NCBI RefSeq assembly: GCF_011064595.1
Contig: NZ_JAALJI010000001.1
Coordinates: forward strand, 372,001 to 436,000
Reading direction: 5' to 3'
Length of the DNA stretch: 64,000 nucleotides
Source of the DNA: Paludisphaera soli
GTDB taxonomy: Bacteria; Planctomycetota; Planctomycetia; Isosphaerales; Isosphaeraceae
A model generated the notes under the pieces. The model was not told the origin of the DNA and made no database searches. It saw nothing but the letters and a program-made list of their open reading frames with translations. The position numbers and the translations under genes are program-made. Each line of letters opens with the position of its first letter. Within the stretch, counting starts at the first letter, position 1. This document shows positions 1,409-33,596 of the stretch, in pieces.

Positions 1409-1420
1409 AGCCTCGGCCGT

Positions 1421-1448
1421 TTGCGTCCGACCCGGGCCGCGATACACT
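1421..1448 (+). promoter_or_regulatory. possible sigma70-type promoter upstream of tssA
   Basis: TTGCGT (1421-1426) and TACACT (1443-1448) are 16 bases apart and end 57 bases before the tssA start. The -35 match is weak (3 of 6), so this is tentative. Confidence 0.25.
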
Positions 1449-1505
1449 TCGGTGGACGTCGCCCGGGCGCGACGGCGCAGCCGGAATCGTCACCGGGGAT
1501 CGACC

Positions 1506-3416
1506 ATGAGCCTTCCCGCCGTGCTGGACATCGACGAGCTGGTCGCCCCGATCTCGGAGGCCGACCCCGTCGGCGAATACCTCCGCTGGGAGGACGAGTA
1601 CGCGGAGCTGGAGGAGGCCCGACGCGCCGACGAGGACGCCGGCGGCGACGACGTCTGGTCGCGCGACAAGAAGACGTCGGACTGGCCGGCCATCCGCAAG
1701 CTCGGCTCGAAGCTCCTGGCCGAGAAGTCGAAGGACCTCCAGATCGCCGCCTGGGTCGCCGAGGCCCTCGCCCACCAGCACGGCCTGGTCGGCGTGCGCG
1801 ACGGGCTGAAGCTCGTGCTGGCCATCCAGGACGCCTACTGGGACGCCGCCCACCCCGAGCGCGGCGACCTGGAGCTTCGCGAGGCGGTGTATGACTTCAT
1901 CGACCACGACCGCCTGTTCCCGTTCCTGGTGCGGGGCGCGATCGTGACGTACGTCCCGGGCGCCCCGGATTACACGTATACGTTCCTCCGCTACGAGGAG
2001 TCGCGCAAGACCGAGATCCTGGCCAACGCGAAGTATGAGAGCGACGACCTGCGTGAGGCGGCGTTGGAAGGCCGCCTGACCGGCGATCGGTTCGACGAGG
2101 CCGTGCAGGCGACCTCGCGCGACTTCTACGTGCAGCTCCTGGAAACTTGCGAGGAGAGCCTCGCCGTCGTCGAGGCGATCAACCAGGGGATCGCCGACCG
2201 ATGGACGGGCAAGAATCGGCCCCGCCTCAGCAAAGTCGAGGAGGCCCTGCTGGCGCTCCGCAAGTTCGCCCGTCAGGTGCTCGCCAGGAAGCCCGACGAG
2301 AGCCCCGCGGCCGACGCCGAGCCGGCACCCGAGCACGAGGAGTCGGACGGGGACGACGGCTGGGGCGCCTCGTCCGAGGCCGACGATTCGACCGGGTCGA
2401 TCGACGGCTGGTCCACTCCGGCCGTCGAGACTGTCCGGCCCGCCCGCAAGCCGGCGCGGAGGCGGACGTCCGGCGAGCCGGCGACCGTCGAGGAGGCCCA
2501 CGATCAGATCGCCGAGGCCGCCCATTTTCTGCGATCCCAGGACCCCTCCGACCCCACCCCCTACCTGGTGCTCCGCGGTCTGGCGCTCGGCGCCGTCTTC
2601 CGGCCCGAGGGGCTCGACCCGGCGAACCTGCCCGCCCCGTCGAGCGAGGTGCGCGAGAAACTCTTCCTGTCGTCTCGGGCCGAGGACGAGGAAAACTGGA
2701 CGATCCTGCTCGCCGAGTCCGAACAGGCGATGGGCCGCCCCGAAGGCCGGGGCTGGCTCGACCTCCACTGGTACGCGGACCGGGCGCTCGAGGGCCTGGG
2801 ATACGAAGACGCCGCCCGGGCCGGCCGAGCCTTCCTGAGAGCTGGACTGGACGAGCACCGCGACTGGACCGAGGCCCACCTGCGAGACGGCACTCCCTGC
2901 GCCTCCCGAGCCACGCTGGATTGGCTGCATGAGCGCGAGATCCTCGGCGGACCCGCCGAGAAGCCCGTGGACTTCGCCGGCTTCCACCGAACCGCCGAGC
3001 CCCCCCCCAGCGAGGACGAGGCCCCCGGCGAGGAACGGCCGAGCCGTCCTGTCGACGCCTGGGACCGCGCCCAGGAGCTGTTCCGCGAGGGGCGGGCGGC
3101 CGAGGCCCTCTCGGTCATGGCGAAGGCGGCCAGCCAGGCCTCCAGCGGTCGCGAGCGATTCCTGCGCTCGCTCCAGCAGGCGGAGCTGTGCATCGCGCTC
3201 GGGCGGGACGCCCTCGCCCTGCCGCTGCTCGAGAACCTGGCGCGGCGGATCGACGAGCAGAAGCTGGAGCAGTGGGAGGACTCGGGCCTCTGCGCCCGGG
3301 TCTTCTCCTCGCTCTATCGCTGCCTCCGGGGTCGCGACGAGGCCCGGGCCGCCACGGTCTACGATCGGCTCTGCCAGCTCGACCTCGCGATGGCCATCGA
3401 GATCGAAAACTCCTGA
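1506..3416 (+). CDS. tssA: type VI secretion system protein TssA (ImpA family)
   Basis: TssA acts at the T6SS baseplate and distal sheath end and helps coordinate tube and sheath growth. The 636-residue product has an ImpA_N-like N-terminus (PISEADPVGEYLRW, then the segments around SDWPAIRKL and AYWDAAHP, which are characteristic). An acidic, Ser/Pro-rich linker follows at about residues 260-330, then a helical C-terminal half resembling the VasJ-type TssA C-terminus. The open frame extends upstream to 1077, but that part reads as Arg/Pro-rich nonsense overlapping the previous gene, so the ATG at 1506 was chosen. It lies about 27 kb from the main tss cluster, at the head of the lipoprotein, pseudo-caspase, kinase and caspase gene group. 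Confidence 0.88.
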   Translation: MSLPAVLDIDELVAPISEADPVGEYLRWEDEYAELEEARRADEDAGGDDVWSRDKKTSDWPAIRKLGSKLLAEKSKDLQIAAWVAEALAHQHGLVGVRDGLKLVLAIQDAYWDAAHPERGDLELREAVYDFIDHDRLFPFLVRGAIVTYVPGAPDYTYTFLRYEESRKTEILANAKYESDDLREAALEGRLTGDRFDEAVQATSRDFYVQLLETCEESLAVVEAINQGIADRWTGKNRPRLSKVEEALLALRKFARQVLARKPDESPAADAEPAPEHEESDGDDGWGASSEADDSTGSIDGWSTPAVETVRPARKPARRRTSGEPATVEEAHDQIAEAAHFLRSQDPSDPTPYLVLRGLALGAVFRPEGLDPANLPAPSSEVREKLFLSSRAEDEENWTILLAESEQAMGRPEGRGWLDLHWYADRALEGLGYEDAARAGRAFLRAGLDEHRDWTEAHLRDGTPCASRATLDWLHEREILGGPAEKPVDFAGFHRTAEPPPSEDEAPGEERPSRPVDAWDRAQELFREGRAAEALSVMAKAASQASSGRERFLRSLQQAELCIALGRDALALPLLENLARRIDEQKLEQWEDSGLCARVFSSLYRCLRGRDEARAATVYDRLCQLDLAMAIEIENS

Positions 3417-3477: not shown

Positions 3478-3674
3478 CATCTCTTGCCGGGCCGATAATA
3501 CCGGCGTCGACGCGGCGTCCGGGCCTTCCGGCACCGTCGTCCCAATACGAGGCCCCGCGGCAGGGTCCGCCGCGGCCTCCGGACGAAGGAATCGGCCGGA
3601 GGCTCATGCCAAGCACGGGTCGGCGCCCAGGACATGGTGCGTCGGTAGCACGGATGCAAATAAAGGAGCCGGTC

Positions 3675-4649
3675 ATGATGACCCCTCGGAACATTCTCGC
3701 CTGCCTCGTCGTCGGCTTGTCCGCCGGGTGCGCCGGCGTCTCGGTGGTCAAGGATCCCGGGGCGGACGACGGCGGCATCCGCTACTGGCGTCCCAAGCCG
3801 TACCTGCTGGTCACCCCGGCCGACGCCACGGGCCGGATGGTGAAGATCAAGCTGGAGTACCTGCCGGACTTCTCCGAGGAGTACTCGATCACCCCCAAGG
3901 GCAAGAAGCCGCCCCAGATCCAGCTCAAGGACGGCTGGAACCTGGTCGCGGTGGGGGGCCCCGCCCCGCCGCCGGAGCCGGCCGAGGCCGCCCCCGCCCC
4001 GCCCCCGCCCGGGGCCGACCCGATGAAGCTGCCGGAGTATGTGGTCGCCGCGACGAACGTCCCGATCGGCTATTACGAGTCGGTCTTCGACGTGAGGGGG
4101 AGTCGGAAGATCCTCAAGGGCTGGCGTTACATCGGCATGAGCCCGATCGGCGGCGGCGACTCGATCGGCGTCGATCCTCCCGCCCCCAACCAGCCCCCCG
4201 GCTGCCCGCCGCTCCAGCGCGGCTCGTCGATGCCCGGCCCGCTCTACGGCATGGTCTTCTTCAACGGCGTGATGACCTTCCGCACGCTCGACGAGATCGC
4301 CAACAACATGACGTGCCCGCAGTACGTCAAGATCATCCCCGACAAGCCCGAGCCGGTCGTCGTCCCGCCGCCGGAAACCCGGATGAAGCCCGACCAGCCC
4401 ACGGACCCGGACACCCGCATCAAGGTCGACCCCGACCTGCCCGTCGACGAAATGAAGCTGGATGAAGCCACCCCGCCGGCGATCGTCCCGGAAGTGGTTG
4501 TGCCGCCGATCCCCTCCCCGGCCCCGCCCGAGAGCACGTCGCTGAACCTGACCCCCGCCCCCTCGGGCACCGAGGATCGGGCCGTGCAGCGGACCTCGAT
4601 CAGCATCCCGCCCCCCAAGGCCTGGGCTTCGCTGACGGAAACCCGCTGA
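3675..4649 (+). CDS. lipoprotein of unknown function beside tssA
   Basis: The start was set at the ATG at 3675, six bases after AAGGAG (3663-3668). The frame is open further upstream without a better signal. The 324-residue product begins with a lipoprotein signal ending in a lipobox (LSAGC, Cys at about residue 21), so it should be lipidated and anchored in a membrane. Residues 30-220 contain a probable beta-rich domain (around KPYLLVTPAD and YESVFDVRGSRK), interrupted by a Pro/Ala-rich loop. The C-terminal 100 residues are Pro-rich and probably disordered. T6SS membrane complexes usually include the lipoprotein TssJ, and this gene is the only lipoprotein in the T6SS part of the window. It is longer than TssJ and I see no clear TssJ signature, so that role is only a hypothesis. 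A strong terminator follows. Confidence 0.75.
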   Translation: MMTPRNILACLVVGLSAGCAGVSVVKDPGADDGGIRYWRPKPYLLVTPADATGRMVKIKLEYLPDFSEEYSITPKGKKPPQIQLKDGWNLVAVGGPAPPPEPAEAAPAPPPPGADPMKLPEYVVAATNVPIGYYESVFDVRGSRKILKGWRYIGMSPIGGGDSIGVDPPAPNQPPGCPPLQRGSSMPGPLYGMVFFNGVMTFRTLDEIANNMTCPQYVKIIPDKPEPVVVPPPETRMKPDQPTDPDTRIKVDPDLPVDEMKLDEATPPAIVPEVVVPPIPSPAPPESTSLNLTPAPSGTEDRAVQRTSISIPPPKAWASLTETR

Positions 4650-4712: not shown

Positions 4713-4881
4713 CGCGCGCCGGAGTCGGTCGAGACGCCCGGCCGGGACGTCGATGTCGACGGTGCCGGTCCGGTTTTTCGTTGAGTCCGCCCGCCGCGCG
4801 TCGGTAAGGTGACGGAACGAGTCGCGTCGAAGGCGATTTCAGATCCATTTCGAACACCCAAGGGCCCGGGGTCTGACCGTG

Positions 4882-7800
4882 ATGGCGACCGCGACCTCGC
4901 GCGGCAGGAAGCTCTCGAAGCCTCGTCAATCCCTGGCGATCCTGGAGGCGTCGGCGCTCGTCTCGGCCGTCGTCCTGCTGGCCTGGCTGGCGCTCTGGTT
5001 CATCCACCAGCGGGCGCAGGGCCTGCGGGTGGAGGCCCACCACCTCGGCCATGAGGACCTGGCCGCGGCCGAGGCGCCCTTCCCGGCTGCCGACGTGCGG
5101 ACCCTGCTCGACTCGGCCGACGAGGGCCACCAGGCGGCCTCGGCCGCCGACGGCCTGCTCGACGCCGCGCGGGCCGCCTGCTCGCGCCCCGGCGGCCCGG
5201 TCCTCCTGTACGTCTCGGCCCCCACGCTCGACGCCGGCCCCGAGCCCGAACTCGGCTCGACGACCCTCCGCGCGTTCCTGGAAGAGATCGTGAAAGCGGC
5301 GAAGTGCGACGTCGTCCTGGCCCTCGACCTGGCGCAGGTGGACAGCGACCGCGACCTCGGCGTGTATGCGAACGCCCCGTATCGCGGCCTGGTCGACGTC
5401 GTGGAATCGATCGAGCCGGGCGAGCACGCCGTCTACGTCCTGACCTCCGCGGCCCCGGGGCAGAAGAGCTGGGGGTCGGAGGCCCTGGGACGGTCGGCCT
5501 TCGCGCACTTCCTCCGCGAGGGGCTGGCGGGCGAGGCGAGGGGATGGGACGCGACCGAGATCCTCGGCCGCGTCACCGTCGAGGGGCTGCATCGCTATGT
5601 CCACCAGCACGTCTCGCGATGGGCCCGCGACCATCGCCGGGCCGTCCAGACCCCCTTGATCGCGAGGATCGGCGAGGCGCGACGGCCCATCGCGCTGGCC
5701 TTCGTCCCCCGCCCCGCCGCCCCCGAGAAGGTCGAGGAGCCGGCCCCGCCGCCCAGGCCGCCGGCCGAGGCTCCGAAGGAGGCTGCCAAGGGCGAGCCCG
5801 CCGCGAAGCCCGAGCCCCCGCCCGTCGAGCCCCGGGTCGCCTTGCTGAACGACTTGCTGGAGGAATGGAAGCGTCACGACGCCCTGCTCGACCGTTCTCC
5901 GCCACCGTATCGTTCGCAACCGGCCGGGTTCCGGTCGTACCAGGCGAGCCTGGTCCGCGCCGAGCGTCGGCTCCGCGCCGCGTGGTCCGACCCCGCCTCG
6001 ATCGAGGTCGTCCGCGAGGACGTTCGCACGGCGAGCCGGGGCCGCGAGGAGGTCGAGTCCGCGCTCAAAGAGGCCGAGGAACGAGCCCGGAGCTTCCCGT
6101 TCCGCCCCGCCGGGGGGGACGAGGAGGGGCGTCGCGCCGTCACCGACGCCCTGCTCTTCCTGACCGACACCGCGCCGGCCGATCGGGCCCTCTACGCCCC
6201 GCCGCCCCCCGCTGAGGCCCCGAAAGCCGACGCCGGCGCGAAGCCCGACGCGGGGCCGAAGCCCCCCTCGCCGGCCCGCCCCGATCCCCCGCGCGCCCTG
6301 GCCGACGCCGTGCCGCACGGCTTCCCGGAACGCTATCTGGAGCTGCAACTGCCGGCGTGGTCCCTGCGATTCGCGCGCGATTTCGAGGTGCCGGACCACT
6401 TCCGGGACGAGCGTCGCTCGGCCATCCTGCATCGCCTGGTGGAAGTCCGCGCCCGCGCCGAGGAGGCCCTGGCGGCCGACCGTCGAGGGCTGGACTGGAT
6501 CCGGCCGGCGATCGCGAAGGGGGACGACGAGCGGCGACGACTCCAGGACCGGGTCTTCGCGCCCGACCAGGCGACGGACGAGGCCGGCAAGGAACTGCTG
6601 GAATCCATCCCGATCCTCGGCCGTTCCCACTACGAGCCGGCCTCCCGCGCCATCCAGGCCTACAAGGAAGGGCGGGCGACCTGGGAGCGGGTCGCGGCCG
6701 AGCTGCCGGACCTCGCGGAGTGGGCCGTGCGAGCCAGGGCGCGCAGGCCGGAAGACCGCTCATTGGAGGACAGCCCGCTCCCCGCCGACGTCTCGCAGGC
6801 GCTCGACGACGCCGAGGCCCTCGCCCAGGCCCTCGATCGGCCGATTCCCACGGGCGGCGACTTCGCGCAGGCGGTGCAGGGCCGGTTGGAAGTCCTGTCG
6901 GAGGCCTCGCGCAAGGCACGCACGTCGCTGGCCGCTCTGGAGAAGGGGCTGCACGACTCCGCCCGTTCCGAGGGCCGCGACTGGACGGCGATCGACGCCG
7001 CGCTGGGGACGCCCTGGCTCCCGGCCGAGTCCCGACGGTCGCTGCTGCAAGCCCTCGTCCGCCGCGCCGAGAGGGTCCGGGTCGAGCCGGAACGCAGCAC
7101 GATCGACGCCGACGAGGTCCGGCCGGCCGACCCGGGCTTCTGGAGCGTCGCCGGGGGCCTCGCGGCGCTCGACGAGCGGCTCCGCGAGATCGCCGGGGGG
7201 GCGTCGCCCGCCGACGCGGGGGCGGCGCTCGTGACCCAGGCCTGGGAGGCCGCCAAGGGGGCGCCCGGCTCGCCCGACTCGGTCGACGCCGCCGTCCCGG
7301 CGTTTTGGAAGTACGCCGAGCACGCGGCGAGGCTCCGCGAACGCGCCCGCGTGGATCGCTCCCGACGGCTCGGCGGCGAGCCGAAGAAGCCGGAGGATCT
7401 CCACGCTTCGCTCCAGGCCGACGACCGGGCGATCCGGCTCATGGGCCGCGGCGAGCTTCGCAGCGACGCCCGCGCCGCGGACGGCCTCGTCGACGCCTGG
7501 GACCGGCTGGCGAGGCTCCGCACGCTCGTCTTCCACGCCGAGCGGCTTCAGCAGGACTTCGTCGCCAGCGCCCCCTCGGCGGTCCAGGAGGCCGTCGCGC
7601 TGGCGCGGGGCCTCGGCGTCCAGGAGCCTCGCGACCCGTTCGTGGGCGGCGGCTCGCTGGCCCTGCGGACCGATCCCGCCGCCGGCTCCCCGCTCAAGAT
7701 CGGCGACGACGGCCTGGCCGAGCTGAGGCTCGGCGTCGCCCCCCCCGACGAGGGCCGCGAGGGGCGGGTCCCGGCCGGCCGCGCGTTCGTCGGCCTGGCC

Positions 7801-8754
7801 TCGCCCCCCGAGGGCCTCCGCGTCCAGGACGCCCGCCGGACGCCGGCGGCCTCGCCCCCGGGGGCGCTGCGGGAGGTCGGGCCGGGGGCCGACTCGTCGC
7901 TGGGGGACCTGGTCGTGCGGCAGGTGGACCCGGCGATCAACGCCGACACGTACGAACTGCGGGCGATGGCCTTCTATCGGGGCCGCGTCGACCAGAGGGC
8001 CGCCGTCCCGCTCACCGTCGTCCCCAGGGCCTACGCCGAGCTGGTCAAGCTCCAGATCTCCCACGACCTCGACGAACTCCGGTCGCGGTTCGGCGACAAG
8101 ACCGCCGCGCTCATCGAGGACCAATTCAAGTTCCACCCCGGCGAGGGCGCCATGCACCGCGGCAAATCGGCGTCCTACCGGCTGAATTTCACGAACGTCA
8201 CGTTCCGCGACCTCACATTGTTCTACAGGCGGACGCTCGCCGACCCGGGCGGCGCTGAGCCCGAGATCCCGGTCGACGAGGAGGAGAAGTCGCTCGTCCT
8301 CCCGGCCGGCAAGACCCTATCGCTCCCCGGCGTGGTGACGTCCGCCCAGGCCGCGATCGACAAGCCGCGCGACCTGCGGGTCGCCTGGCGTCTCCTGGAG
8401 AAGAAGGAGCCGATGAAGCCGCTGTCGGTCCGCTTCCGCCAGGTGGACGTCGAACGCTACATGGAGTTCCGGCCGTCGATCGGCGTGGCCGAGCACGACG
8501 GGGTCCCGCAGGAGTGCTTCGTCGTCCAGTTCGTCCGCAAGTCGAACGACCCGGTGCGCGAGCCCATCCTGGGCCGCGAGATTTCCGGGATGATCAACGG
8601 CATCAAGACGTCGTTCGCCCCCTCGCAGCTCATCATGCCCGGCAAGTCGTTCACGATGACCCAGCCCCGGACGCCGCCGGGCGCGATCAAGTTCACCTGG
8701 TCGGCCGAGATCGAGAACGACCGGCTCCAGCCCAGAGAGTTCAACGGGCCGTGA
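4882..8754 (+). CDS. large membrane-anchored protein with degenerate caspase-like domain
   Basis: The product has 1290 residues; a GTG one codon upstream is an equally possible start. A short basic N-terminus precedes one transmembrane helix (about residues 22-42, LVSAVVLLAWLALWF), suggesting that the bulk lies outside the cytoplasm. Residues 75-285 look like a caspase/C14 fold with strands LLYVSAP and VVLALDLAQV, a SAAPGQKSWGSEALGRSAF segment and a final QTPLIARI. Where active members have GH and DAC, this protein has Ala-Pro (Pro114) and Asp-Leu-Ala (Ala151), so it should be inactive. Next come Pro/Ala linkers, a long helical, charged region (about 310-900), and a C-terminal part likely to be beta-rich (about 930-1290). 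It sits between tssA/lipoprotein and the kinase gene. A scaffold role in the T6SS envelope complex is conceivable but unproven. Confidence 0.8.
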   Translation: MATATSRGRKLSKPRQSLAILEASALVSAVVLLAWLALWFIHQRAQGLRVEAHHLGHEDLAAAEAPFPAADVRTLLDSADEGHQAASAADGLLDAARAACSRPGGPVLLYVSAPTLDAGPEPELGSTTLRAFLEEIVKAAKCDVVLALDLAQVDSDRDLGVYANAPYRGLVDVVESIEPGEHAVYVLTSAAPGQKSWGSEALGRSAFAHFLREGLAGEARGWDATEILGRVTVEGLHRYVHQHVSRWARDHRRAVQTPLIARIGEARRPIALAFVPRPAAPEKVEEPAPPPRPPAEAPKEAAKGEPAAKPEPPPVEPRVALLNDLLEEWKRHDALLDRSPPPYRSQPAGFRSYQASLVRAERRLRAAWSDPASIEVVREDVRTASRGREEVESALKEAEERARSFPFRPAGGDEEGRRAVTDALLFLTDTAPADRALYAPPPPAEAPKADAGAKPDAGPKPPSPARPDPPRALADAVPHGFPERYLELQLPAWSLRFARDFEVPDHFRDERRSAILHRLVEVRARAEEALAADRRGLDWIRPAIAKGDDERRRLQDRVFAPDQATDEAGKELLESIPILGRSHYEPASRAIQAYKEGRATWERVAAELPDLAEWAVRARARRPEDRSLEDSPLPADVSQALDDAEALAQALDRPIPTGGDFAQAVQGRLEVLSEASRKARTSLAALEKGLHDSARSEGRDWTAIDAALGTPWLPAESRRSLLQALVRRAERVRVEPERSTIDADEVRPADPGFWSVAGGLAALDERLREIAGGASPADAGAALVTQAWEAAKGAPGSPDSVDAAVPAFWKYAEHAARLRERARVDRSRRLGGEPKKPEDLHASLQADDRAIRLMGRGELRSDARAADGLVDAWDRLARLRTLVFHAERLQQDFVASAPSAVQEAVALARGLGVQEPRDPFVGGGSLALRTDPAAGSPLKIGDDGLAELRLGVAPPDEGREGRVPAGRAFVGLASPPEGLRVQDARRTPAASPPGALREVGPGADSSLGDLVVRQVDPAINADTYELRAMAFYRGRVDQRAAVPLTVVPRAYAELVKLQISHDLDELRSRFGDKTAALIEDQFKFHPGEGAMHRGKSASYRLNFTNVTFRDLTLFYRRTLADPGGAEPEIPVDEEEKSLVLPAGKTLSLPGVVTSAQAAIDKPRDLRVAWRLLEKKEPMKPLSVRFRQVDVERYMEFRPSIGVAEHDGVPQECFVVQFVRKSNDPVREPILGREISGMINGIKTSFAPSQLIMPGKSFTMTQPRTPPGAIKFTWSAEIENDRLQPREFNGP

Positions 8755-8863: not shown

Positions 8864-11281
8864 ATGAACCGACGGGACGAGGACGAGCCGGTGCGGGACG
8901 AGCCCGCGAACCGGACCGTGGCCTTCTTCAACACGCCCCAGCCCCCGCCCGCCTCGGGTGAGGCCCCCCCCTCCCCCGGGCCGCAGGACCCGGCGGCCGC
9001 CCGCACCGCCCCGCACAAATCCCCGCAGGCCGGGGGCGGGGCGGACCCGGAGGGGGTGCGGATCCCCTCGGTCTTCGGGCCGGACGCGATCCTGCTGAAC
9101 AAGTATCGGGTCGTCCGCATGCTGGGCGAAGGGGGCATGGGGAGCGTCTGGCTGGTCCACCACCTGGGCCTGGACGAGCCCCGCGCGCTCAAGGTCATCA
9201 GCGAGGGGATCGCCGGCGACCCGCGCGTGCGAGCCCGGTTCGAGCTGGAGGCGCGGATCCTCGCCAAGCTCAAGCATCCCTGCGCCGTGGCCGTCCACGA
9301 CACGGGCATCGTCGGCGACACGGCCTACATCGAGATGGAGTACGTCCAGGGCGACAGCCTCCGGCGGATGATCCATCGCGGCGAGCCCGGCCGGCTCCCG
9401 TTCATCCTCTGGATCATGCGGGGGATCTGCGACGTCCTCAGCCTGGCGCACAATCGGGGGATCGTCCACCGCGACCTGAAGCCCGAGAACATCATGGTCG
9501 TGACCGACCCCGAGACCGGAGCCCAGGGGGTCAAGGTCCTCGACTTCGGCATCGCCAAGATCATCCAGGGGGTTGGCGACGCCGCGACCTCGGTGACGAT
9601 GAACACCCAGGGGGTGTTAGGGACTCCCGCTTATTCGAGCCCCGAGCAGAACTCGTTCGACGTGGCCGAGCAGGTGCGGACCCCGATCGACCACCGCAGC
9701 GACCTGTACTCCCTCGGCGTGATCCTCTACGAGATGCTGACGGGCGAGCTGCCGTTCAAGGGGAACTGGACCCAGGTCCTCTACCAGCACGCCAAGGTCC
9801 CCCCCCGCCCGCTTCGCGAGGCGGCCCCCGACGCCGACATCCCGCCGGCCGTCGAGGAGCTGGTCCTGCGATGCCTGGCGAAGTCTCCGGGCGAGCGGCC
9901 CGCGTCCGCCGCCGAGCTGTACAACGCGCTCCGCGCCGCGGCCGGCGAGCTGGACCTCTCGGTCGAGTCGACCGAGCCGGGAGGCACGGGCGTGACCCCG
10001 AGACGCGCCCCCCTGCCGGTCCTGACCCCGCACCCCCACGGGAGCCTCCCCCTCACGCAGGTCCACCCGACCCCCGGCCGCTTCCGCCTCACCCGCCTAG
10101 CGGCGATCCCGCTCGTCCTCGCCGCCCTGATCCCGCTGGTCATGCTGGCGACGAGCCTCTCGGGCGGCGGCAAGGGGGGGGCGTCGAACGGCGCGCAGCC
10201 TCCGCCCCCGCCGCCGGTCCCGACCGGGGTCTCGCCCGAGGTCGCCCGGTTCCTCCTCGAACGCTATGCGGGGCGGCCCTACGAGCCCGAACCCGACGCC
10301 GCGATCGTCGAACTCGACGGCATGCGATGGCCGTCGGCGGTGACGACCGGACTCGGCGACGACCGGCGTCGGCTGGCGTTGCACGGGCGGATCTACCTGC
10401 CGGAGGGGGCCGAGCCCGACTCGTCGGAGGGGGACGAGGGAGCCCTGAGGCTTCCCCGCGCCGTCGTCGTCCGGAACGGAGCCAGCCCGATCGCGTTCCG
10501 CCTGATCGAGGCGGGCCAGTTCCTGATGGGGGAGGAAGACGAGGGGCGTCGCAACGAAGAAAACGGGCCGCATCACAAAGTCGCACTGTCCACGTACTAC
10601 ATCCAGGATAGGGAGACGACGATCGCGCAGTTCGAGGACTACCGGCGGCGGACCGGCCTGGCGCGGGGCGGCGACCTCGACGAGTACGACGCCGCGGCGC
10701 TCGACGTCGGGTTCCCCGAGGATCCCGGGGCCGCCGCGTACCCGGCCTCGGCCCTGCCCCGATCGACCTGCTCCGAGTTCGCCCGCTCGCTCGGGGCCTG
10801 GCTGCCGACCGAGGCGCAGTGGGAGTTCGCGGCGCGGTCGCGAGGCCGGCGCGGGCCCTACGTCTGGGCGGACTCGTCCGATCCCCACGAGAACGCCAAC
10901 ATCGGCCTGTTCCCGCAGCGGCCGGCCCCCGTGGGGTCGTTCCCGCGAGACCGGACCCTCGAAGGGGTGTACGACATGACGGGCAACGTCCGCGAATGGT
11001 GCCGCGACGTCTGGAGGCCGTATCCGAACCGGCCGGTGCTGGTCGACCCGGTCGAACGCCCGGCGAGCGACCTGGAGGACGCCCGCTACGCCATCCGGGG
11101 GGGCTCCTACGCCTCGCTCCCCACGACCGCCCGGGTGAGCTACCGGGCCGACTCCGCCGGGCTGGAATATCGGGCGCCGAACCGGGCCAAGATCGAGGAC
11201 GTCGGCTTCCGCATGGTGCTCGAGGTGGCGGTCGCCGAGGACCTGAAGCCGGCGTCCGTCGAGAAGGGAGCCGCGCGATGA
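8864..11281 (+). CDS. PpkA-like Ser/Thr protein kinase with C-terminal FGE/sulfatase-modifying domain
   Basis: This 805-residue protein has a Pro-rich N-terminal tail and then a complete Hanks-type kinase domain (about 82-360). The kinase domain shows a glycine loop (LGEGGMGSVW), Lys110 in RALK, the HRDLKPEN loop with catalytic Asp204, DFG (Asp227) and GTPAYSSPEQ. A transmembrane helix (about 413-435) puts the C-terminal part outside the cytoplasm. Residues 545-795 form an FGE/SUMF-type domain (FRLIEAGQFLMG, LPTEAQWEFAAR, YDMTGNVREWC, RGGSY). The cysteine pair used by true formylglycine-generating enzymes is absent: the end reads VGFRMV instead of GFRC. It is therefore probably a sensing or binding module, as in T6SS PpkA kinases. 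It shares an ATGA overlap with the following caspase gene, implying translational coupling, and two FHA proteins in the window are possible readers of its phosphorylation. Confidence 0.92.
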   Translation: MNRRDEDEPVRDEPANRTVAFFNTPQPPPASGEAPPSPGPQDPAAARTAPHKSPQAGGGADPEGVRIPSVFGPDAILLNKYRVVRMLGEGGMGSVWLVHHLGLDEPRALKVISEGIAGDPRVRARFELEARILAKLKHPCAVAVHDTGIVGDTAYIEMEYVQGDSLRRMIHRGEPGRLPFILWIMRGICDVLSLAHNRGIVHRDLKPENIMVVTDPETGAQGVKVLDFGIAKIIQGVGDAATSVTMNTQGVLGTPAYSSPEQNSFDVAEQVRTPIDHRSDLYSLGVILYEMLTGELPFKGNWTQVLYQHAKVPPRPLREAAPDADIPPAVEELVLRCLAKSPGERPASAAELYNALRAAAGELDLSVESTEPGGTGVTPRRAPLPVLTPHPHGSLPLTQVHPTPGRFRLTRLAAIPLVLAALIPLVMLATSLSGGGKGGASNGAQPPPPPPVPTGVSPEVARFLLERYAGRPYEPEPDAAIVELDGMRWPSAVTTGLGDDRRRLALHGRIYLPEGAEPDSSEGDEGALRLPRAVVVRNGASPIAFRLIEAGQFLMGEEDEGRRNEENGPHHKVALSTYYIQDRETTIAQFEDYRRRTGLARGGDLDEYDAAALDVGFPEDPGAAAYPASALPRSTCSEFARSLGAWLPTEAQWEFAARSRGRRGPYVWADSSDPHENANIGLFPQRPAPVGSFPRDRTLEGVYDMTGNVREWCRDVWRPYPNRPVLVDPVERPASDLEDARYAIRGGSYASLPTTARVSYRADSAGLEYRAPNRAKIEDVGFRMVLEVAVAEDLKPASVEKGAAR

Positions 11282-14200
11282 GGTCGGTTCGGGAAGGACC
11301 CGCGACGCGGACGGCCGGACGCGGCGTCGCCCCCCTGCTCGCCTGGCTCGCCCTGGCGGCGACGGCCTCGGCCCAGGCCCCGCCGGGCGGCCCCGCGCCG
11401 GCGTCGAAGCCCCAGCTCTGGGCGATGCTCGTGGGGATCGAGCGCTACCAGGACTCGACGGAATTCCCGCGATGCCGGGGGGCGGCGGCCGACGCCGCGG
11501 CCCTGGGCCGATGGCTGATCGACGCCGCCGGCTGGCCCGCCGACCACGTCCTGCTCCTGAGCGATCGCGAGGCCGAGGACCTCGGCTTCGCCGACCCGGC
11601 GCGTCGGCCCGAGCGGAGGCCCGCCACGAAGGCCGAGCTGGACCGGGGCGTGCGCGAATGGCTCGCCGGCAAGGTGAAGCCCGGCGACTCGATCCTGATC
11701 TTCTTCGCCGGCCAGGCCGTCGGCCTGCCGAGCCCCGAGGGCGACCATCCGACCCGCTCGGCGCGGGATGTCCTGCTGCCGATGGACGCCCGAGGCGCCG
11801 ACGTCGAGGCGACCGGGTGGCGTCCGGGCGACGCGATCGAGGATCTCGCGGCGACGGGCGACTACTCCATCGTCTGCCTGCTCGACACGTCCCCCGCCGG
11901 TCGCGTTCAGTCGCCAAGGGTGCTCGGCGACCCCGCCCGGTTCGAGGGGGGGGAGCGGATGCTCCGGGGGATCGTGCGGTGGCCGGGCGTGACCGCCTGG
12001 CTGGCGGCCGGCGACAGGCCCTCGGGACAGTCCCCGCGCGACGGCGGCGGCTTCCTGGCGCAAGGGCTCCTGGAATCGCTCGGCACCCGGCGCGAGCCGG
12101 CGAACCTGGCCGCCTGCCTCGAACGCCTCCGGCGCAAGCCCGAGCTGGCCTCTCAGCGGTTCCGGGCCTCGGGCGGCTTCCGCGCCGACCTCAGCCTCTG
12201 GCCTTCGGACGTACGCCCCCCGCGAGCCAAGGCCGAGCCGATCCTCCAGCGCGGGCACGCCGACCGCGTGACGGCCCTGGCGTTCAGCGGCGACGGGGCC
12301 CGTCTGTTCACCGCGAGTCAGGACTCGACGGTGCGGCTCTGGGACGCCGCCGACGCCAACCTCGCTCGGGTCCTTTCGCCGGCGCTCAACGGCGTCTGGA
12401 GCCTGGCGCGGAGCGGAGACGGCCGGCTGATCGCGGCCGGCGGCGGCAAGGGGGAGGTCTTCGTCTACGACCTCGTCGCCGACGCGCCGATCGACTTCAT
12501 CGGCGCGCCCGTCCATCGCGGCCCGGTCGAGCAGGTCGCTTTCCTGCCGACGGCCGGCGACGACGCGGGAGCCGAGCCTTCGGCACGTCGCCTTGTCACG
12601 CTCGACGATCAGGGACGCTGCATCCTCTGGACCGTGGCCGGGAAGCGGATGCGCATGGCCGCCGCCGTCGCCGAGTCGAAAGCCCGTCTCGCCGCCGTCG
12701 CCGCAGTCGCGGGGCCGGTCGCGTTCGCCGTCGTGGCGCCGGATCGCGGCGGGGCCGAAAGAATCCACGCCTACGACCCGTCCGGGAAGCTGCTCACCGC
12801 GTTGCCGACGGGCGACTCGCGTCCGACCGCCCTGGCGCTCTCCGACGACGGCTCCACCGCCTACCTCGGCCTCCAGGACGGGACCCTGAACGAGATCACC
12901 CTGCCCGGCGGCGAGGTCCGGCCCCGGGCCAAACTGGAAGCCGCCGTCACCTCGATCCAGCCCGCCCCGCTCTGGCTGGCGGCGGCCTCGGGACGCAAGA
13001 TCTCGATCCTGGCGCCCGGCCGCGAGCCGACCGAGCTGACGATGGAACGGACGATCGGCCGCGCGGCGACCTCGGCCGACGGCCGGCTCGTGGCGACCTG
13101 CGACGCGTTCCGGGGCGACGTTCGGGTCTGGGAGCTGTCCGCCGACGGATCCGAGGCGAATCCGATCCCGATAGACGTCGGCGGCCCCGGCGCGGCGATG
13201 TCGCTCGCGTTCGCGCCGGGGGGCGACGCCCTGGCCGCCGGCGACGGCGCGGGGGGCGTCCGTCTCTGGGAGATCCCGACCGGACGCTCCCGGCCCGGCG
13301 TCGCGCCCAGTCGCGGGCGGGCGCGGCACGTCGCCGTCTCGGCCGACGAGCGCGCGATGCTCCAGGTGGGCGACGGCGGCGCGGCCTTGCTCTGGGAGTT
13401 CGGCGAGGGCCGCGGCGCGCGACGGATCGCCGGGGCGTCCGGCTTCCGGCCCACCGGAGAGTTCCTGCCCAACGGCGACCTGGCGCTCATCGACGGCGAC
13501 GGGCTGATCGTGGTGCACGACCGGGCGTCGCTCGAACGCAAGCCGATCGTCTTCGAGCGTCCGCTCACCGAGGACGGTGCGGGGCCGTCCAGCTGGGGCT
13601 TCCACCGCCTGGCCGTCTCCCCCGACGGCCGCATCGCCGCCGGCAGCCGGGACGGCCCGCTCGCCTGCGTCTGGAAATCCGAGGACGGGTCGCTCGTCTC
13701 GGCACCGATCCGCGGCCACGACGACGCGATCGGCCTCGTCGCCTTCGCGAACGCCGGCGCGGAGATGCTCACCGGCTCGGACGACGGCCTCGTGAAGGCC
13801 TGGGACCTGTCCGGTCGCGAGCCGAGGCTGGTGCGGACGCTGGGCCCGTCGGTCGCGGCGGATCGGCCGCCGGTGACGGCCCTCGCGGCGTCTCCCAAGG
13901 TGGCCGGCGAGGTCGTCGTCGGCCTCCAGGACGGCCGGCTCCAGCTCTGGCGTCCCGGCGCCGAGAAGCCGGTGGACGCCCTCGCCCCGCTCCAGGGAAT
14001 GGTCCGCGCCGCCTCGTTCTCGCCGGATGGCCGGCTCGTGGCGGCGGCCGGCGACGACCGGCGCATCGCGCTCTTCGACCCCGCGCGGCCCGGCTCGCCG
14101 ATCCCCCTCGGCTCGGGACCGAGCCATTTCGAGATGGTCAACGCCCTGGCCTTCTGGCCCGGCGGCAAGGTCCTGGCGAGCGCCAGCGACGACACCACGG

Positions 14201-15705
14201 TCCGGCTCTGGCGGCTGGCCGACCGCACCCTGATCGGCACTTTGGCCTCGACCGCCGAGACGCTCGACTGGGTGGTGTTCACGCCCGAAGGGCTCTACGA
14301 CGCCTCCCCCTCGGGCGAGCGGCGCGTGACCTGGAGGCTCGACCCGAAGGATGCGCCCGCCGCGGCCGACGGCGTGACCGCTCGGCTGGACCAGCTCCGC
14401 CGCCAGCGTCACGTCTTCGACCTCGCCGAGCGGCTCGCCCGCGCCGAGGAGGTGCCGCCGCCCGTCGACCTGCCGGCCGGCGCACCGCCGCGCGTCGAAC
14501 TTGAGCCGGTCGCGGCCGTCGGCGGGAAGCAGCGTCGGGTCGAGGTGGCGATCCGACTGAGCGACCCGGACGTCGAGGACCTGCGCCTTTACCACAACGG
14601 CGTGCCGATCCCGGGCGAGATGCGCCGGCAGGGCCGCGAGGTGCGGACGATGGTCACGCTCGTCGGCGGCGAGAACACGTTCTACGCACTGGCCGGCAAG
14701 CCCGGCGGCGTGGACGCCCGCTCCAACCGGCTCGACTTGCGGTACGACGGCCCGACGCTCGGCAAGACCCACGTACTGGCCCTGGGGATCAGCAAGTACG
14801 GCCGCCAGGCCCTTCGTTACGCGGACGTCGACGCCAGGTCGATCGCCGAATTCCTCCGCCGCAACGGCCGGGCCGACCCGGAGACCGAGGTGGTCGAGCC
14901 GATCGTGCTGCTGAACGAGGACGTCACCCGCCAGTCGCTCGACGCGGCCTTCGAGACGCTCCGCCGACGCGTTCTGGGCAGGCCCGAGGACCGGATCGTC
15001 GTCTTCCTCGCGGGGCATACCGACGTTCGCCAGGGGTTCTTCTGCCTGCTGCTCCCCTCGGCCGAGATGCCGGCGGGGCCGGAACTGGTGGCCCTTCGCG
15101 GCCCGGACCCGAAGGCCGCTGCTCCCCCCAGTGCCGGTGCCGCCGCGCCGATCCTCGACCGGACGCTGCTCCCCTACGGCCTGATCCACCAGAACCTGGC
15201 GGCGGCCCAGGCGCTCCAGCGACTCGTGATCGTCGACGCCTGTCAGGCCGAGGCCCTGTTCGACGACCCGGTGGTCCGCTCCAAGCAGCGGAGGGCCGTA
15301 CGGGTCCTGGCCGAGGAAGACGCGTACAGGTCGCGCACGTCGTACATCCTGGCCTCGCGTCGGGGCGAGCGCGCCGGCGAGGCCGAGCGGCTCAAGCACG
15401 GCCTGCTGACGTACACGCTGCTGCGGGGCCTCGGCGAGCGCGGGATGGGCCCGACGCCCGACCTGCCGATCTTCGAGCGGCGGCCCACGGCCGACCTGAA
15501 CCAGGACGGCTGGGTGGAGACCGACGAACTCCGCCAGTATGCCGACGCCGCCCTGCCGAGCCTCGCCAAGGCGTTCCCGGAACTCGTACTGCGCGGCGTG
15601 CCCGGGGCCGAGGAAGTTCGCCCCGCGGCCGCCGTCTCCCGCGACTCGGAGCAGCAAGGATCATTCCCGTTGATCGAGGTCGTCGGGCCGACCGGGACGC
15701 CCTGA
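11278..15705 (+). CDS. WD40 protein with an inactive N-terminal and an intact C-terminal caspase-like domain
   Basis: The ATG overlaps the kinase stop (ATGA). The open frame continues upstream inside the kinase gene, but the product starting here has a signal peptide (GVAPLLAWLALAATASAQA), which supports this start. Its 1475 residues contain a caspase-like domain at about 44-310 that lacks both catalytic residues: FFAGQ (Gln146) replaces FFAGH, and LDTSPAG (Ser205) replaces DACHSG. WD40 repeats follow (about 322-990, with repeated GDGARLFTASQDSTVRLWD-like units) and then a TPEGLYDASPSGER motif shared with the opposite-strand protein. Last comes a second caspase-like domain (about 1163-1440) with His1247 in FLAGHTD and Cys1322 in VDACQAE, the expected dyad. 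Predicted to be exported. Substrate unknown; WD40 domains may gate or recruit. Confidence 0.88.
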   Translation: MRSVREGPATRTAGRGVAPLLAWLALAATASAQAPPGGPAPASKPQLWAMLVGIERYQDSTEFPRCRGAAADAAALGRWLIDAAGWPADHVLLLSDREAEDLGFADPARRPERRPATKAELDRGVREWLAGKVKPGDSILIFFAGQAVGLPSPEGDHPTRSARDVLLPMDARGADVEATGWRPGDAIEDLAATGDYSIVCLLDTSPAGRVQSPRVLGDPARFEGGERMLRGIVRWPGVTAWLAAGDRPSGQSPRDGGGFLAQGLLESLGTRREPANLAACLERLRRKPELASQRFRASGGFRADLSLWPSDVRPPRAKAEPILQRGHADRVTALAFSGDGARLFTASQDSTVRLWDAADANLARVLSPALNGVWSLARSGDGRLIAAGGGKGEVFVYDLVADAPIDFIGAPVHRGPVEQVAFLPTAGDDAGAEPSARRLVTLDDQGRCILWTVAGKRMRMAAAVAESKARLAAVAAVAGPVAFAVVAPDRGGAERIHAYDPSGKLLTALPTGDSRPTALALSDDGSTAYLGLQDGTLNEITLPGGEVRPRAKLEAAVTSIQPAPLWLAAASGRKISILAPGREPTELTMERTIGRAATSADGRLVATCDAFRGDVRVWELSADGSEANPIPIDVGGPGAAMSLAFAPGGDALAAGDGAGGVRLWEIPTGRSRPGVAPSRGRARHVAVSADERAMLQVGDGGAALLWEFGEGRGARRIAGASGFRPTGEFLPNGDLALIDGDGLIVVHDRASLERKPIVFERPLTEDGAGPSSWGFHRLAVSPDGRIAAGSRDGPLACVWKSEDGSLVSAPIRGHDDAIGLVAFANAGAEMLTGSDDGLVKAWDLSGREPRLVRTLGPSVAADRPPVTALAASPKVAGEVVVGLQDGRLQLWRPGAEKPVDALAPLQGMVRAASFSPDGRLVAAAGDDRRIALFDPARPGSPIPLGSGPSHFEMVNALAFWPGGKVLASASDDTTVRLWRLADRTLIGTLASTAETLDWVVFTPEGLYDASPSGERRVTWRLDPKDAPAAADGVTARLDQLRRQRHVFDLAERLARAEEVPPPVDLPAGAPPRVELEPVAAVGGKQRRVEVAIRLSDPDVEDLRLYHNGVPIPGEMRRQGREVRTMVTLVGGENTFYALAGKPGGVDARSNRLDLRYDGPTLGKTHVLALGISKYGRQALRYADVDARSIAEFLRRNGRADPETEVVEPIVLLNEDVTRQSLDAAFETLRRRVLGRPEDRIVVFLAGHTDVRQGFFCLLLPSAEMPAGPELVALRGPDPKAAAPPSAGAAAPILDRTLLPYGLIHQNLAAAQALQRLVIVDACQAEALFDDPVVRSKQRRAVRVLAEEDAYRSRTSYILASRRGERAGEAERLKHGLLTYTLLRGLGERGMGPTPDLPIFERRPTADLNQDGWVETDELRQYADAALPSLAKAFPELVLRGVPGAEEVRPAAAVSRDSEQQGSFPLIEVVGPTGTP

Positions 15706-15808: not shown

Positions 15809-18800
15809 TCAGCGACGGACCAGGTCGTCGCCCGGGGCGGGCTGGGGGTCGAAGATGCGGATCTTCTGCCAGCCGGAGAGGGTTTCGGGGGGATAGAAGC
15901 CGGCGAACTGGCGGCGGGCGGTGTATTCCGAGACGAGCCGGAGCACGCTCGCCTGGAAGTCGTGGAGGGACGTCGGCGAGTCGACGCCGCCTCGTTGGGT
16001 GGAGGAGCCGCCGGCCACGGTGGACGCGGCCAGCACCGCGCGGGCGAACGCGCCCAGTTCGTCGAGCCGCTCGGATGGGTCGTGCTTGGAGGCCGCCATC
16101 ACGATCACGCCCCGGCGGCCGGAGAGGTCGCGCGCCCATTCCTTGAACGCGGCCCTGGCCGACGCGGAGGCCCCGGAGTGCAGGGCGTCGACCAGGACCA
16201 CGACCAGGCAGCCCTGCGAGGCGACCTCTTCCAGACGCTCCGCGATGGCCGCCGCCGAGGCCGCCTTCGGGGGCGCATCCTCCGCCCGTGAGTCGGATGC
16301 GAGCACCAGGGCGCCCCCCTCTCCGGCCTTGAACAGGTGCGATTCGAGCACCACGAAGACCGAGTCGCCGGGCTTCAGCTCGCCCGACCGCACGCCGTTC
16401 GCCAGGTCGTCGAACAGGCCGACGATCGCGTCGGCGTCGGGATCGGTCAGGACCTTGGAATCGATCGCCGATTCGGCGAAGTGGGCCCGGCCGTCGGGCT
16501 CGCGGAAGAACGCGGCCAGCTCCTCGACGTCGCGCCGGGCGTTGCGGATCGCGGAGACGTCGCGACGGGGGAACTCCTCGACGCCGATCGCGCGGACGAC
16601 CAGCCGGGGATCGCGACGGACGACCGGCGGCGGGGCGGGCGCGGCGGGCTCGGCCAGGACGATCGCGAACTCCTGGATGGCCCGGACGCCCAGGTCGTCG
16701 ACGGCCTCGACCGTGATCGCGTTCCGACCCGGCGTCAGCCGGACGGGCTCCACGGCCCGGAAGCTCGCGAGGCCGGGACCGGCGGTGCGGGTGGGCAGCC
16801 GGCGGCCCCCCTGATGGATCGTGATCGAGGCCACGCGGCGATCCGCGGCCGCCTCGGCCTCGACCTGGAGGTTCAACTCGGGGCCGGCCGCGACGATCGG
16901 GGCGGCCTCGCCGGCCGGGGCGGGGTCGATCAGCCGGATCGCCGGCGGAGTCCTGACAACCGGCGCACCCTGAACAGTGGCGAGAGCCGCGACCGGGTCG
17001 CCCGTCCGCAGCAGGGCGTCGATCACGGCGGGCCTTCGCAATTGGGCCTCGTACCGCGACATCGGGTGGAAGTCGGAGGGGAGCGAGCGGAAGTCGGCGG
17101 GGTTCCTCACGTCGACGTGGTTGAGATGCCAGCCCAGGAGTCGGCGGTCGCCGGCGATCGAGGTCTCGTAGAATCCCTCGGGCATCCAGACGACCCACTC
17201 GCGGTCGGCGGCCGGAAAGACGCTGAGCGCGGGGACGTCGGCCCGCGAGGTCATCAGGACGAACGGCGCGGCGGCGCCCGGGCGGGCGATCACCAGGGCG
17301 ACCTGGTCCTCCAGGTCGGGGGGGACGGCGGCGAGGGCCGCGTCGAGCCGCGCGACGTCGATCGGCTCGCGGCGCTTCTCGCGACGGGCCGCCGTGATCG
17401 CGTCGCCGGCCTGGAGGCCCATCAGGACGGCCGCCGATCGCGGGCGGACGGCCGAGACGACGACCCGACCCTGGGCGTCGCGGCCCAGGTCGGCTCCCAG
17501 GGGACTGGTCGCGTCGCAACCGGCGAGGCTCCAGAGCGACAGGGTCATGTCGGCCGAGCAGGCGACCATCCAGCGGCCGTCGGCCGAGGGCGCCATCGCG
17601 TGCACGGCCCCGCCGTGGCCCTGGAACAGCCGGGTCCGGGAGCGATCTCGAAGGTTGTGGACGAGGATGCCGCCGTCCTCGGTGCCGATCGCCGCGCACG
17701 GGGCCGGATGGCCCGCCCGATCGTTCGCCGGGATGAACGTATAGCTCGACCATCGGCCGTCGAGCTGATTGAGCGCGATCTCCAACGTCTCGCCTCGGTC
17801 GGGGACGAAGGCCGGGCGATCGAACGCGCGGGGCCGGAAGCTCCAGCCTTCGAGCGTCTTGACGGGGCCTTGCAGCGCGGCGTCGGGCGGGACGTCGACG
17901 AATCGGAGCTCGGCGAGGTCGAAGCCCTCCCGGGGGGGCGGTCCCTCGCCCTCCCCCCGCGATCGGCGGAATGCGACGGTCGGCTTCGCGTCCGCAAACG
18001 CGACGTCCCAGAGCATCGTCCCCGGGCCGTCGGCCTCCAGGCCGGGGTCGACGCGGCCGGGGGCGGGCAGGTCGCGGACGACGATCTCCTGATTCGCGCC
18101 CCCGGCCATCGCCAGGAATCGATTGTCGGGGCTGAACGCCAGGGCCGCGACCAGGCCCTTCGCGGTGCGGACGGTCTCGATCCGGCGGCCCGTGGGCATC
18201 TCGCGCAGCTCGACGTCGCAATCCTTCGAAGGGTATTCCTCGACGCTCGCCGACTTGTGGAGGATGCTGGCCGCGACCGATCGGCCGTCGGGGCTGAAGG
18301 CCAAGGCCTCGACCGGGCGAAGCTCTCGCACGGCCTCGGGATTGAGGACGACCCCGTTGCCGAGGTCGGCGCCGTCGTAACGTTCGAGCCTCCCATCCTC
18401 GCGGCCGACCACGATGGACCTGCCGTCGGCGCTGGCGGCCATCGCGGTGATCGTCACGGCCTGGCCGTCGTCCCTGGCGAGGTCCTCGGGCGAGGGGGAG
18501 GCGACCGCAAGCTGTCGACCGGACTTCCAGTCCCAGAGCCGGATCGAGCCGTCACGCGGGCCGCCGACGCTGACGATCCGCGTGCCGTCGAGGAACGCCG
18601 CGCCTTTCACGATCCCCGGGTGGCCTTGCAGGACCGCGAGGCATCGGGGGGTCTCGCCTTCCAGGTCCCAGACGCGGACGGTCCCGTCCTCGCTGCACGA
18701 GGCCAGCCGGTTCGCGTCCCGCGAGAAGGCCATGGCGAAGACCGCCCCGGCGTGGCCCCGTCGTTTCGCGGCCGGCTCCTCGGCGCGGCCGGCGGGAAGC

Positions 18801-19303
18801 TCGACGACCAGTTCGCCCGAGCCCCCCGGCCCCGTGCCGGGGAATCGGTAGATCAGGATGCCGCCGCGAGCCCCGATCGCTCCCAGCCCGGCCACCGCCA
18901 GCAGGCGCTGGTCGTTCGGGCCGGGCTTCGGGGCGATCGCCAGCGCATACACGCGGCCCCCCCGGCGTCGCATGGGCGGGCGGATCGATCGCTCCAGCCG
19001 CGGCCGACCTTCGTCCAGCTCCCAGACGTGGACGACCTTGTCCCGCCCGCCCGAGATCAGCCGTTTGCCGTCCGGGCTGAAGACCAGGGCCTGGATCAGG
19101 TCGGTGTGGCCCTGGACGTTCATGGTCAGGATCGGGCTGGCGAAGTCGCGAGGGACCGCTTGCGCCCGGCAAGTCGTGCCGACGAGGATCGTCGCCGCGA
19201 TGAAGGCGAGGACCCAGGCCAGGCCCGCCCCCGACCCGCCACGACGTTCGTGGCGGGCGGCCGGGCGGTCGATGCGTGCTGCGGCTGCGACGGGGTGGGT
19301 CAT
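15809..19303 (-). CDS. exported WD40 protein with PDZ-like segment and Cys-less caspase-like domain
   Basis: The 1164-residue product has a long basic N-terminus and a hydrophobic segment (about 28-44), so it is probably secreted or anchored. WD40 repeats span about 55-600 (HTDLIQALVFSPDGKRLISGGRDKVVHVW is the first). A PDZ-like stretch at about 600-678 (VVVSAVRPRSAAVLMGLQAGDAI) is followed by VWMPEGFYETSIAGDRRLLGW, the same linker motif as in the plus-strand WD40 protein. An Ig-like region at about 790-880 leads into a C-terminal caspase-like domain (about 895-1150). There the expected His is present (His989 in VLESHLF), but the catalytic Cys position of DACHSG is Leu1041 (DALHSG), so proteolysis is unlikely. 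It is convergent with the caspase gene, with about 100 bases between the stops. Confidence 0.87.
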   Translation of the reverse strand: MTHPVAAAARIDRPAARHERRGGSGAGLAWVLAFIAATILVGTTCRAQAVPRDFASPILTMNVQGHTDLIQALVFSPDGKRLISGGRDKVVHVWELDEGRPRLERSIRPPMRRRGGRVYALAIAPKPGPNDQRLLAVAGLGAIGARGGILIYRFPGTGPGGSGELVVELPAGRAEEPAAKRRGHAGAVFAMAFSRDANRLASCSEDGTVRVWDLEGETPRCLAVLQGHPGIVKGAAFLDGTRIVSVGGPRDGSIRLWDWKSGRQLAVASPSPEDLARDDGQAVTITAMAASADGRSIVVGREDGRLERYDGADLGNGVVLNPEAVRELRPVEALAFSPDGRSVAASILHKSASVEEYPSKDCDVELREMPTGRRIETVRTAKGLVAALAFSPDNRFLAMAGGANQEIVVRDLPAPGRVDPGLEADGPGTMLWDVAFADAKPTVAFRRSRGEGEGPPPREGFDLAELRFVDVPPDAALQGPVKTLEGWSFRPRAFDRPAFVPDRGETLEIALNQLDGRWSSYTFIPANDRAGHPAPCAAIGTEDGGILVHNLRDRSRTRLFQGHGGAVHAMAPSADGRWMVACSADMTLSLWSLAGCDATSPLGADLGRDAQGRVVVSAVRPRSAAVLMGLQAGDAITAARREKRREPIDVARLDAALAAVPPDLEDQVALVIARPGAAAPFVLMTSRADVPALSVFPAADREWVVWMPEGFYETSIAGDRRLLGWHLNHVDVRNPADFRSLPSDFHPMSRYEAQLRRPAVIDALLRTGDPVAALATVQGAPVVRTPPAIRLIDPAPAGEAAPIVAAGPELNLQVEAEAAADRRVASITIHQGGRRLPTRTAGPGLASFRAVEPVRLTPGRNAITVEAVDDLGVRAIQEFAIVLAEPAAPAPPPVVRRDPRLVVRAIGVEEFPRRDVSAIRNARRDVEELAAFFREPDGRAHFAESAIDSKVLTDPDADAIVGLFDDLANGVRSGELKPGDSVFVVLESHLFKAGEGGALVLASDSRAEDAPPKAASAAAIAERLEEVASQGCLVVVLVDALHSGASASARAAFKEWARDLSGRRGVIVMAASKHDPSERLDELGAFARAVLAASTVAGGSSTQRGGVDSPTSLHDFQASVLRLVSEYTARRQFAGFYPPETLSGWQKIRIFDPQPAPGDDLVRR

Positions 19304-33563: not shown

Positions 33564-33596
33564 CCGCAGTCGGCGGCCCCCGGGGCCTCGAAACCG

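Follow-up and report, generated by a model that had tools for sequence, protein, structure and literature searches.

Caspase homologues of bacteria have been described in several settings that resemble parts of the locus reported here. In the orthocaspases and related C14 proteins, WD40 repeats are joined to a p20-like domain with a His-Cys dyad. No other companion domain is as common as WD40, and Planctomycetes are rich in forms with a substituted dyad (PMC3501461, PMC7475262). It has also been published that caspase domains are fused to WD40 and to FGE domains, and that intact dyads are infrequent in Planctomycetes (PMC3501461). In pseudo-orthocaspases, the caspase fold is kept and the dyad lost, with Ser in place of Cys (PMC6426788), and in animals a dead caspase homologue, cFLIP-L, works with a live one, caspase-8 (cited in PMC6426788). 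Inactive caspase domains also accompany the caspase domains of partner proteins in conflict systems, of which the EACC1-caspase and VMAP/vWA systems have linked genes for active and for inactive caspase domains, as well as FGE-type domains (PMC7159879). The other relevant system is the threonine phosphorylation pathway of the type VI secretion system (T6SS). There, a protein of the periplasm, TagR or RtkS, switches on the kinase PpkA through its periplasmic portion, and PpkA phosphorylates Fha (PMC6082577, PMC10482370). The Pseudomonas version of the pathway reports outer-membrane damage (PMC11881912).

The two caspase-like domains of CWC

The window analysed is the whole 64,000-nucleotide stretch of the Paludisphaera soli genome. 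A sequence-only reading of it had picked out one exported polypeptide, here called CWC, with a dead and a live caspase-like domain around a WD40 propeller. The features of this protein are as follows.

11278..15705, plus strand: CWC protein, pseudocaspase, WD40, Ig-like and caspase segments in that order, 1475 aa (Pfam, profile alignment, AlphaFold2/Foldseek)
11278..11376, plus strand: signal-peptide-like leader (sequence and orthologs)
11407..12213, plus strand: N-terminal dead caspase-like domain, residues 44-312 (profiles, AlphaFold2, Foldseek, ortholog dyads)
11713..11715, plus strand: Gln146, replacing the catalytic His of the N-terminal domain
11890..11892, plus strand: Ser205, replacing the catalytic Cys of the N-terminal domain
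12223..14322, plus strand: WD40 repeat region, residues about 316-1015 (Pfam WD40, 6e-40)
14530..14757, plus strand: Ig-like beta segment, residues about 1085-1160 (AlphaFold2 strands, Ig/FN3 Foldseek matches)
14755..15597, plus strand: C-terminal intact caspase-like domain, residues 1160-1440 (Pfam C14, 2e-7 alone; Foldseek MALT1, 8e-5)
15016..15018, plus strand: catalytic His1247, invariant in orthologs
15241..15243, plus strand: catalytic Cys1322, invariant in orthologs

All four dyad residues lie exactly where the sequence-only reading had placed them. A Pfam scan of the whole protein reports WD40 repeats and Peptidase_C14. The single propeller that had been described is not upheld, since a region of about 700 residues is, judging by its length, too long for one. 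In nearly all orthologs, inspection of the sequences finds a hydrophobic leader before the N-terminal domain, usually closing with an AxA-type motif, which supports the earlier prediction that CWC is exported, probably to the periplasm.

As a single sequence, the N-terminal domain has no Pfam match, and profiles of its orthologs were therefore built. The profile of 21 orthologs aligns to that of the C-terminal domain with an E value of 5e-9 (probability 96%), bringing LLDTS opposite IVDAC and S205 opposite C1322. It also matches yeast metacaspase structures (metacaspase-1, 4f6o, E 7e-7), with the catalytic GH opposite GQ, that is, His opposite Q146, and it aligns column by column with live planctomycete caspases (FAGHGF / LDCCHSG). 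An AlphaFold2 model made from a 19-row alignment has a pLDDT of 89 and a pTM of 0.90, and its top PDB matches in Foldseek are metacaspases, MALT1 and Geobacter GSU0716 (E 3e-9 to 2e-7, best probability 1.00). Structure comparison (E 3e-9) and profile comparison (E 5e-9) both assign the domain to the caspase-hemoglobinase fold. The dyad positions hold Q146 and S205, and no ortholog has His and Cys together there. The profiles and the predicted structure confirm the domain as a caspase fold with a dead dyad. An NCBIfam caspase_w_EACC1 match also begins in this domain; at 42.9 bits it lies below the cut-off of 140, and membership of the EACC1 or VMAP conflict systems was not adopted.

The isolated C-terminal domain matches Pfam PF00656 (Peptidase_C14) with 31.5 bits, over the cut-off of 21.4, so the C14 fold that had been proposed for it is present by Pfam. 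Its AlphaFold2 model is of moderate confidence (pLDDT 74), with MALT1 as the best Foldseek match; a search of PDB sequences with its profile (hmmsearch) found no match, though Pfam and Foldseek give matches. Taken together, AlphaFold2, Foldseek and the profiles give a caspase fold for both domains. H1247 and C1322 are present in the C-terminal domain of every ortholog, and we infer that this domain is a live cysteine protease.

The ortholog search covered 37 genomes of the same family, the window's own counted, and 22 other relatives. Full-length orthologs were found in 21 of the 37 and, at the same threshold, in none of the 22. About 22 orthologs are known to us from this work, all from Isosphaeraceae; the assignment of CWC to this family comes from named records, including Singulisphaera acidiphila, Singulisphaera sp. 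GP187, Aquisphaera insulae and others. When the N-terminal profile was run against 398 genomes of the class, strong matches appeared almost only in Isosphaeraceae. At the two dyad positions of the N-terminal domain, the orthologs mostly carry Q and S and sometimes H with S or T (Singulisphaera and genome G010), and variants with H, K, R or A are also seen in the family. The union of pseudo-enzyme and intact caspase domain within a single exported chain, to which the sequence-only reading had drawn attention, is kept across the Isosphaeraceae orthologs. One sequence (L079 / L024, genome G018) has Cys at the N-terminal Cys position together with Lys at the His position, seen once, and has ACH instead of AGH as the motif of its C-terminal domain. 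Elsewhere, in another planctomycete protein, residues 74-562 of a long minus-strand frame (L116, genome G243) form tandem caspase domains, each with His and Cys, possibly a live-live counterpart of CWC.

The dN/dS of the dead domain is 0.09-0.37 over ten pairs, at or below that of the WD40 region in most pairs and near that of the live domain. From these low values it follows that the domain is maintained and not decaying; it is as constrained as the live domain and is under purifying selection. Its invariant positions (among them W48, G85-W86, D137, W235-P236 and W241) differ from the catalytic ones.

Partner proteins and the adjoining kinase

CWC belongs to a module with the following further members.

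3606..4649, plus strand: predicted lipoprotein, lipobox LSAGC, 347 aa, TM-type segment (syntenic orthologs)
4879..8754, plus strand: bitopic membrane protein, 1291 aa, one N-terminal TM helix and a large extracytoplasmic part (syntenic orthologs)
5011..5763, plus strand: probable fourth, degenerate caspase-like domain, residues about 45-295 of the membrane protein (profile comparison)
8864..11281, plus strand: transmembrane Ser/Thr kinase with FGE-sulfatase domain (Pfam Pkinase, 4e-40; FGE-sulfatase, 1e-31)
15809..19303, minus strand, convergent to CWC: WDC2, WD40 protein with C-terminal pseudocaspase, 1164 aa
16004..16606, minus strand: third caspase-like domain, in WDC2, with His kept and Cys replaced by Leu

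WDC2 had been overlooked in the sequence-only reading. Its C-terminal part aligns with the Ig-like segment and caspase domain of CWC in hhalign with an E value of 6e-20; BLAST among the N- and C-terminal domains of CWC and the domain of WDC2 finds nothing significant. The Cys is lost in 18 of 18 relatives of WDC2, most of which retain the His. In the family genomes with a completeness of 90% or more, WDC2 occurs in all 16 with CWC and in 0 of the 12 others (16/0/0/12, p 3e-8), an obligate association at that completeness. The two are also absent together within genera, and some genomes carry both on different contigs. Gating of the live C-terminal domain by the dead N-terminal one, as originally suggested, is a plausible hypothesis. 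WDC2 is an equal candidate for regulator and may be the more obvious gating partner.

A fourth caspase-like domain, degenerate in form, is probably present in the membrane protein at residues about 45-295. This region matches profiles of live planctomycete caspases with a probability of 90% (E 2e-6), and windows of the protein outside it score below 1% against them. In hhalign the domain is near background against both CWC caspase profiles, and it matches WDC2 weakly (28%); the assignment is graded as probable because the clear match is only to the live planctomycete caspases. The lipoprotein has no Pfam or NCBIfam family match. On the other side of the module there is an exported protein of about 550 aa (19569-21302, plus strand), which is kept beside the module, looks like an outer-membrane protein by eye and has no family match. 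It is followed by a 2864-aa right-handed beta-helix protein (21406-30000, minus strand), a possible adhesin, which is syntenic with the module in several genera.

The kinase gene ends where CWC begins. The start ATG of CWC overlaps its stop as ATGA, an exact overlap, as had been noted, and in nearly all loci long enough to show it the kinase gene lies directly upstream of CWC on the same strand; the exceptions are two loci, L082 and L084. The coupling stands as described, and the label of a T6SS-style kinase is amended, following Pfam, to that of a PknB-like kinase which also carries an FGE-sulfatase domain. Among the known inputs of PpkA, TagR is similar to FGE proteins. The kinase is of the PpkA type in that it is a transmembrane Ser/Thr kinase in a T6SS cluster with an FHA protein. 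A single TM helix is predicted at residues 412-430, between the kinase and FGE-sulfatase domains. From this position and the leaders of CWC, it follows that CWC, WDC2 and the FGE domain would share the periplasm, while the kinase domain, predicted to be cytoplasmic, would share the cytoplasm with the FHA proteins. We considered direct phosphorylation of CWC by the kinase and judged it unlikely, since the two would lie on opposite sides of the membrane. On the predicted topology, it is more likely that a signal flows from the periplasm to the kinase.

The enclosing type VI secretion cluster

The module is bordered by T6SS genes on both sides.

1077..3416, plus strand: tssA, upstream border of the cluster (NCBIfam TIGR03363 above cut-off; Pfam ImpA_N, T6SS_VasJ)
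30440..42502, plus strand: tssB, tssC, hcp, tssE, tssF, tssG, tssK, tssL, an IcmF/TssM-N-like gene and a methyltransferase frame (Pfam)
42874..51301: FHA-DUF4123 (minus), PAAR (minus), VgrG (minus), FHA/TagH-like (plus, 46927-48372) and ClpV-like (minus) genes (Pfam/NCBIfam)

The core genes found around the module are thus TssA, B, C, E, F, G, K, L, IcmF-N, Hcp, VgrG, PAAR and a ClpV-like gene. Since tssA lies upstream, the module sits inside the cluster, and the T6SS linkage is stronger than had been claimed. Within the cluster, a PKMT-like methyltransferase frame (39989-42502, plus strand) follows immediately 3' of the IcmF-N gene, and an FHA domain fused to DUF4123 (42874-43797, minus strand), an unusual form of T6SS adaptor, is encoded next to PAAR and vgrG. 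Models for TagQRST found no match (NCBIfam/Pfam); a lipoprotein and an ABC ATPase are nearby. No STAND/NACHT, EACC1 or vWA-MoxR genes were recognised among the scanned neighbours (Pfam/NCBIfam).

The module is nested in tss clusters of five genera (G000/G001/G003/G004, G021, G030/G013, G028 and G009) in differing arrangements. It lies between tssG and tssK in G021, between clpV and tssG in G028, beyond vgrG/PAAR in G030 and G013 and beside tssK in G009. The linkage of kinase, caspase and T6SS genes is therefore present in relatives, where such pairs are found in several genera, frequently and not universally. Counted over the family genomes of at least 90% completeness, CWC and VipB occur together with p 0.0015 (14/2/3/9); counted by genus, the value is only p 0.058. 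VipB was not detected in the near-complete genomes G018 and G023, both of which carry CWC and WDC2, nor in some less complete CWC genomes. In Singulisphaera (G014, G031), both the module and a T6SS are present, far apart.

Proposed role and comparison with known systems

The locus suggests a regulatory role for caspase-fold proteins in a bacterial weapon or an envelope alarm. Our leading reading, tentative and somewhat short of an even chance, is a periplasmic module for sensing and proteolysis that feeds the PpkA-like kinase toward FHA and T6SS assembly. Exported CWC would bring a live cysteine-protease domain, with its dead domain as scaffold or allosteric partner and its WD40 propellers providing protein contacts, and would act together with WDC2. 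In T6SS-bearing lineages, the CWC/WDC2 complex would feed the extracytoplasmic FGE domain of the kinase, which would phosphorylate cytoplasmic targets, such as an FHA protein, and so trigger T6SS assembly. We count in favour of this reading the dyad pattern, the dN/dS of the dead domain, the kinase adjacency, the co-occurrence with WDC2, the tss nesting, the co-occurrence with VipB across genomes, the leaders and topology, the TagH-like FHA protein, and the precedent of T6SS regulation defined by the periplasmic input that PpkA receives (PMC6082577, PMC10482370). We count against it G018 and G023 without detectable VipB, the separation in Singulisphaera, the genus-level p value, the two loci without the kinase and the pLDDT of the C-terminal domain model.

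The CWC genomes without detectable VipB and the separation in Singulisphaera would rather suit a general protease module responding to envelope stress or damage, independently of the T6SS. The kinase would then read the periplasmic state of CWC and WDC2 and alter gene expression or cell-envelope physiology, and the T6SS location would reflect gain and loss as one island. The association of CWC, WDC2 and the kinase is indeed tighter than that with the T6SS. However, the module is nested within tss operons in varied arrangements in several genera, not merely adjacent to them, and we regard T6SS independence as rather unlikely. The neighbouring vgrG, PAAR and DUF4123 genes might also suggest that CWC and WDC2 are themselves effectors, of the T6SS or otherwise secreted, acting on other cells. 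Against this stand the Sec-type leaders, a single architecture that is conserved and has no polymorphic toxin ends, strong purifying selection, the lack of an obvious immunity gene and retention without a detectable T6SS, and such a role appears very improbable. Scarcely better is a suicide or abortive defence effector, in which the live caspase would kill the cell on a WD40 and kinase signal and the dead domain would autoinhibit it. Caspase effectors are common in bacterial conflict systems, some beside inactive caspase domains in partners (PMC7159879), but CWC is exported away from phage and cytoplasmic triggers, and no core component of such systems was recognised among the scanned genes. 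A separate question is whether the N-terminal domain is a regulator at all. It could instead bind a substrate or ligand as a sensor built on the caspase fold, given invariant residues that are family-specific and unrelated to catalysis, such as the RWPG.TAW motif, and given that some family members have lost the acidic residue that lies two places ahead of the Cys site. Nothing counts directly against this, and sensor and allosteric regulator look alike in sequence; we give it an appreciable chance, though the smaller one.

Carried further, the T6SS-input reading would make a periplasmic caspase complex the sensing input of T6SS retaliation in Isosphaeraceae, with proteolysis or its block switching the kinase-FGE-FHA pathway and one live domain acting amid three pseudocaspase domains (CWC N-terminus, WDC2 and membrane protein). 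We offer this as speculation, more probably wrong than right by a wide measure; if true, it would mean that bacteria have their own version of the caspase-8/cFLIP arrangement, connected to a secretion weapon. Should the T6SS link prove functional, bacterial caspase-like proteases would have an envelope-signalling job outside cell suicide, and the upstream T6SS input in Isosphaeraceae would be identified. In any case, CWC and WDC2 offer a clean natural system for how a pseudo-caspase controls a live one. In the open-access papers searched, we found none on a single chain with both a dead and a live caspase domain, on caspases within T6SS clusters or on an upstream T6SS input in Isosphaeraceae; absence there is no proof.

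Compared with the PpkA-Fha pathway and its TagQRST or RtkS input, the locus has the transmembrane kinase, putative periplasmic inputs, a predicted lipoprotein, a candidate FHA output and the T6SS cluster in common. It differs in that the inputs in Isosphaeraceae would be caspase/WD40 proteins and the kinase bears its own FGE-type extracytoplasmic domain. Unlike the EACC1-caspase and VMAP systems, it lacks recognised EACC1, MoxR, vWA and STAND genes, and its proteins are predicted to be exported. cFLIP-L and caspase-8 are separate animal chains with death domains, and at the sequence level their link to CWC is the fold only. The pseudo-orthocaspases are separate proteins of Cyanobacteria and Alphaproteobacteria, commonly with Tyr-Ser, whereas CWC has Gln-Ser in a domain fused to a live one. 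In contrast to the orthocaspase-WD40 proteins, CWC has dead and live domains at opposite ends of an exported chain, family-wide, and has in addition a partner pseudocaspase and a T6SS context. Dead and live caspase domains were known before as separate proteins; what sets CWC apart is their pairing, fixed within one exported chain, and the second pseudocaspase that occurs with it.
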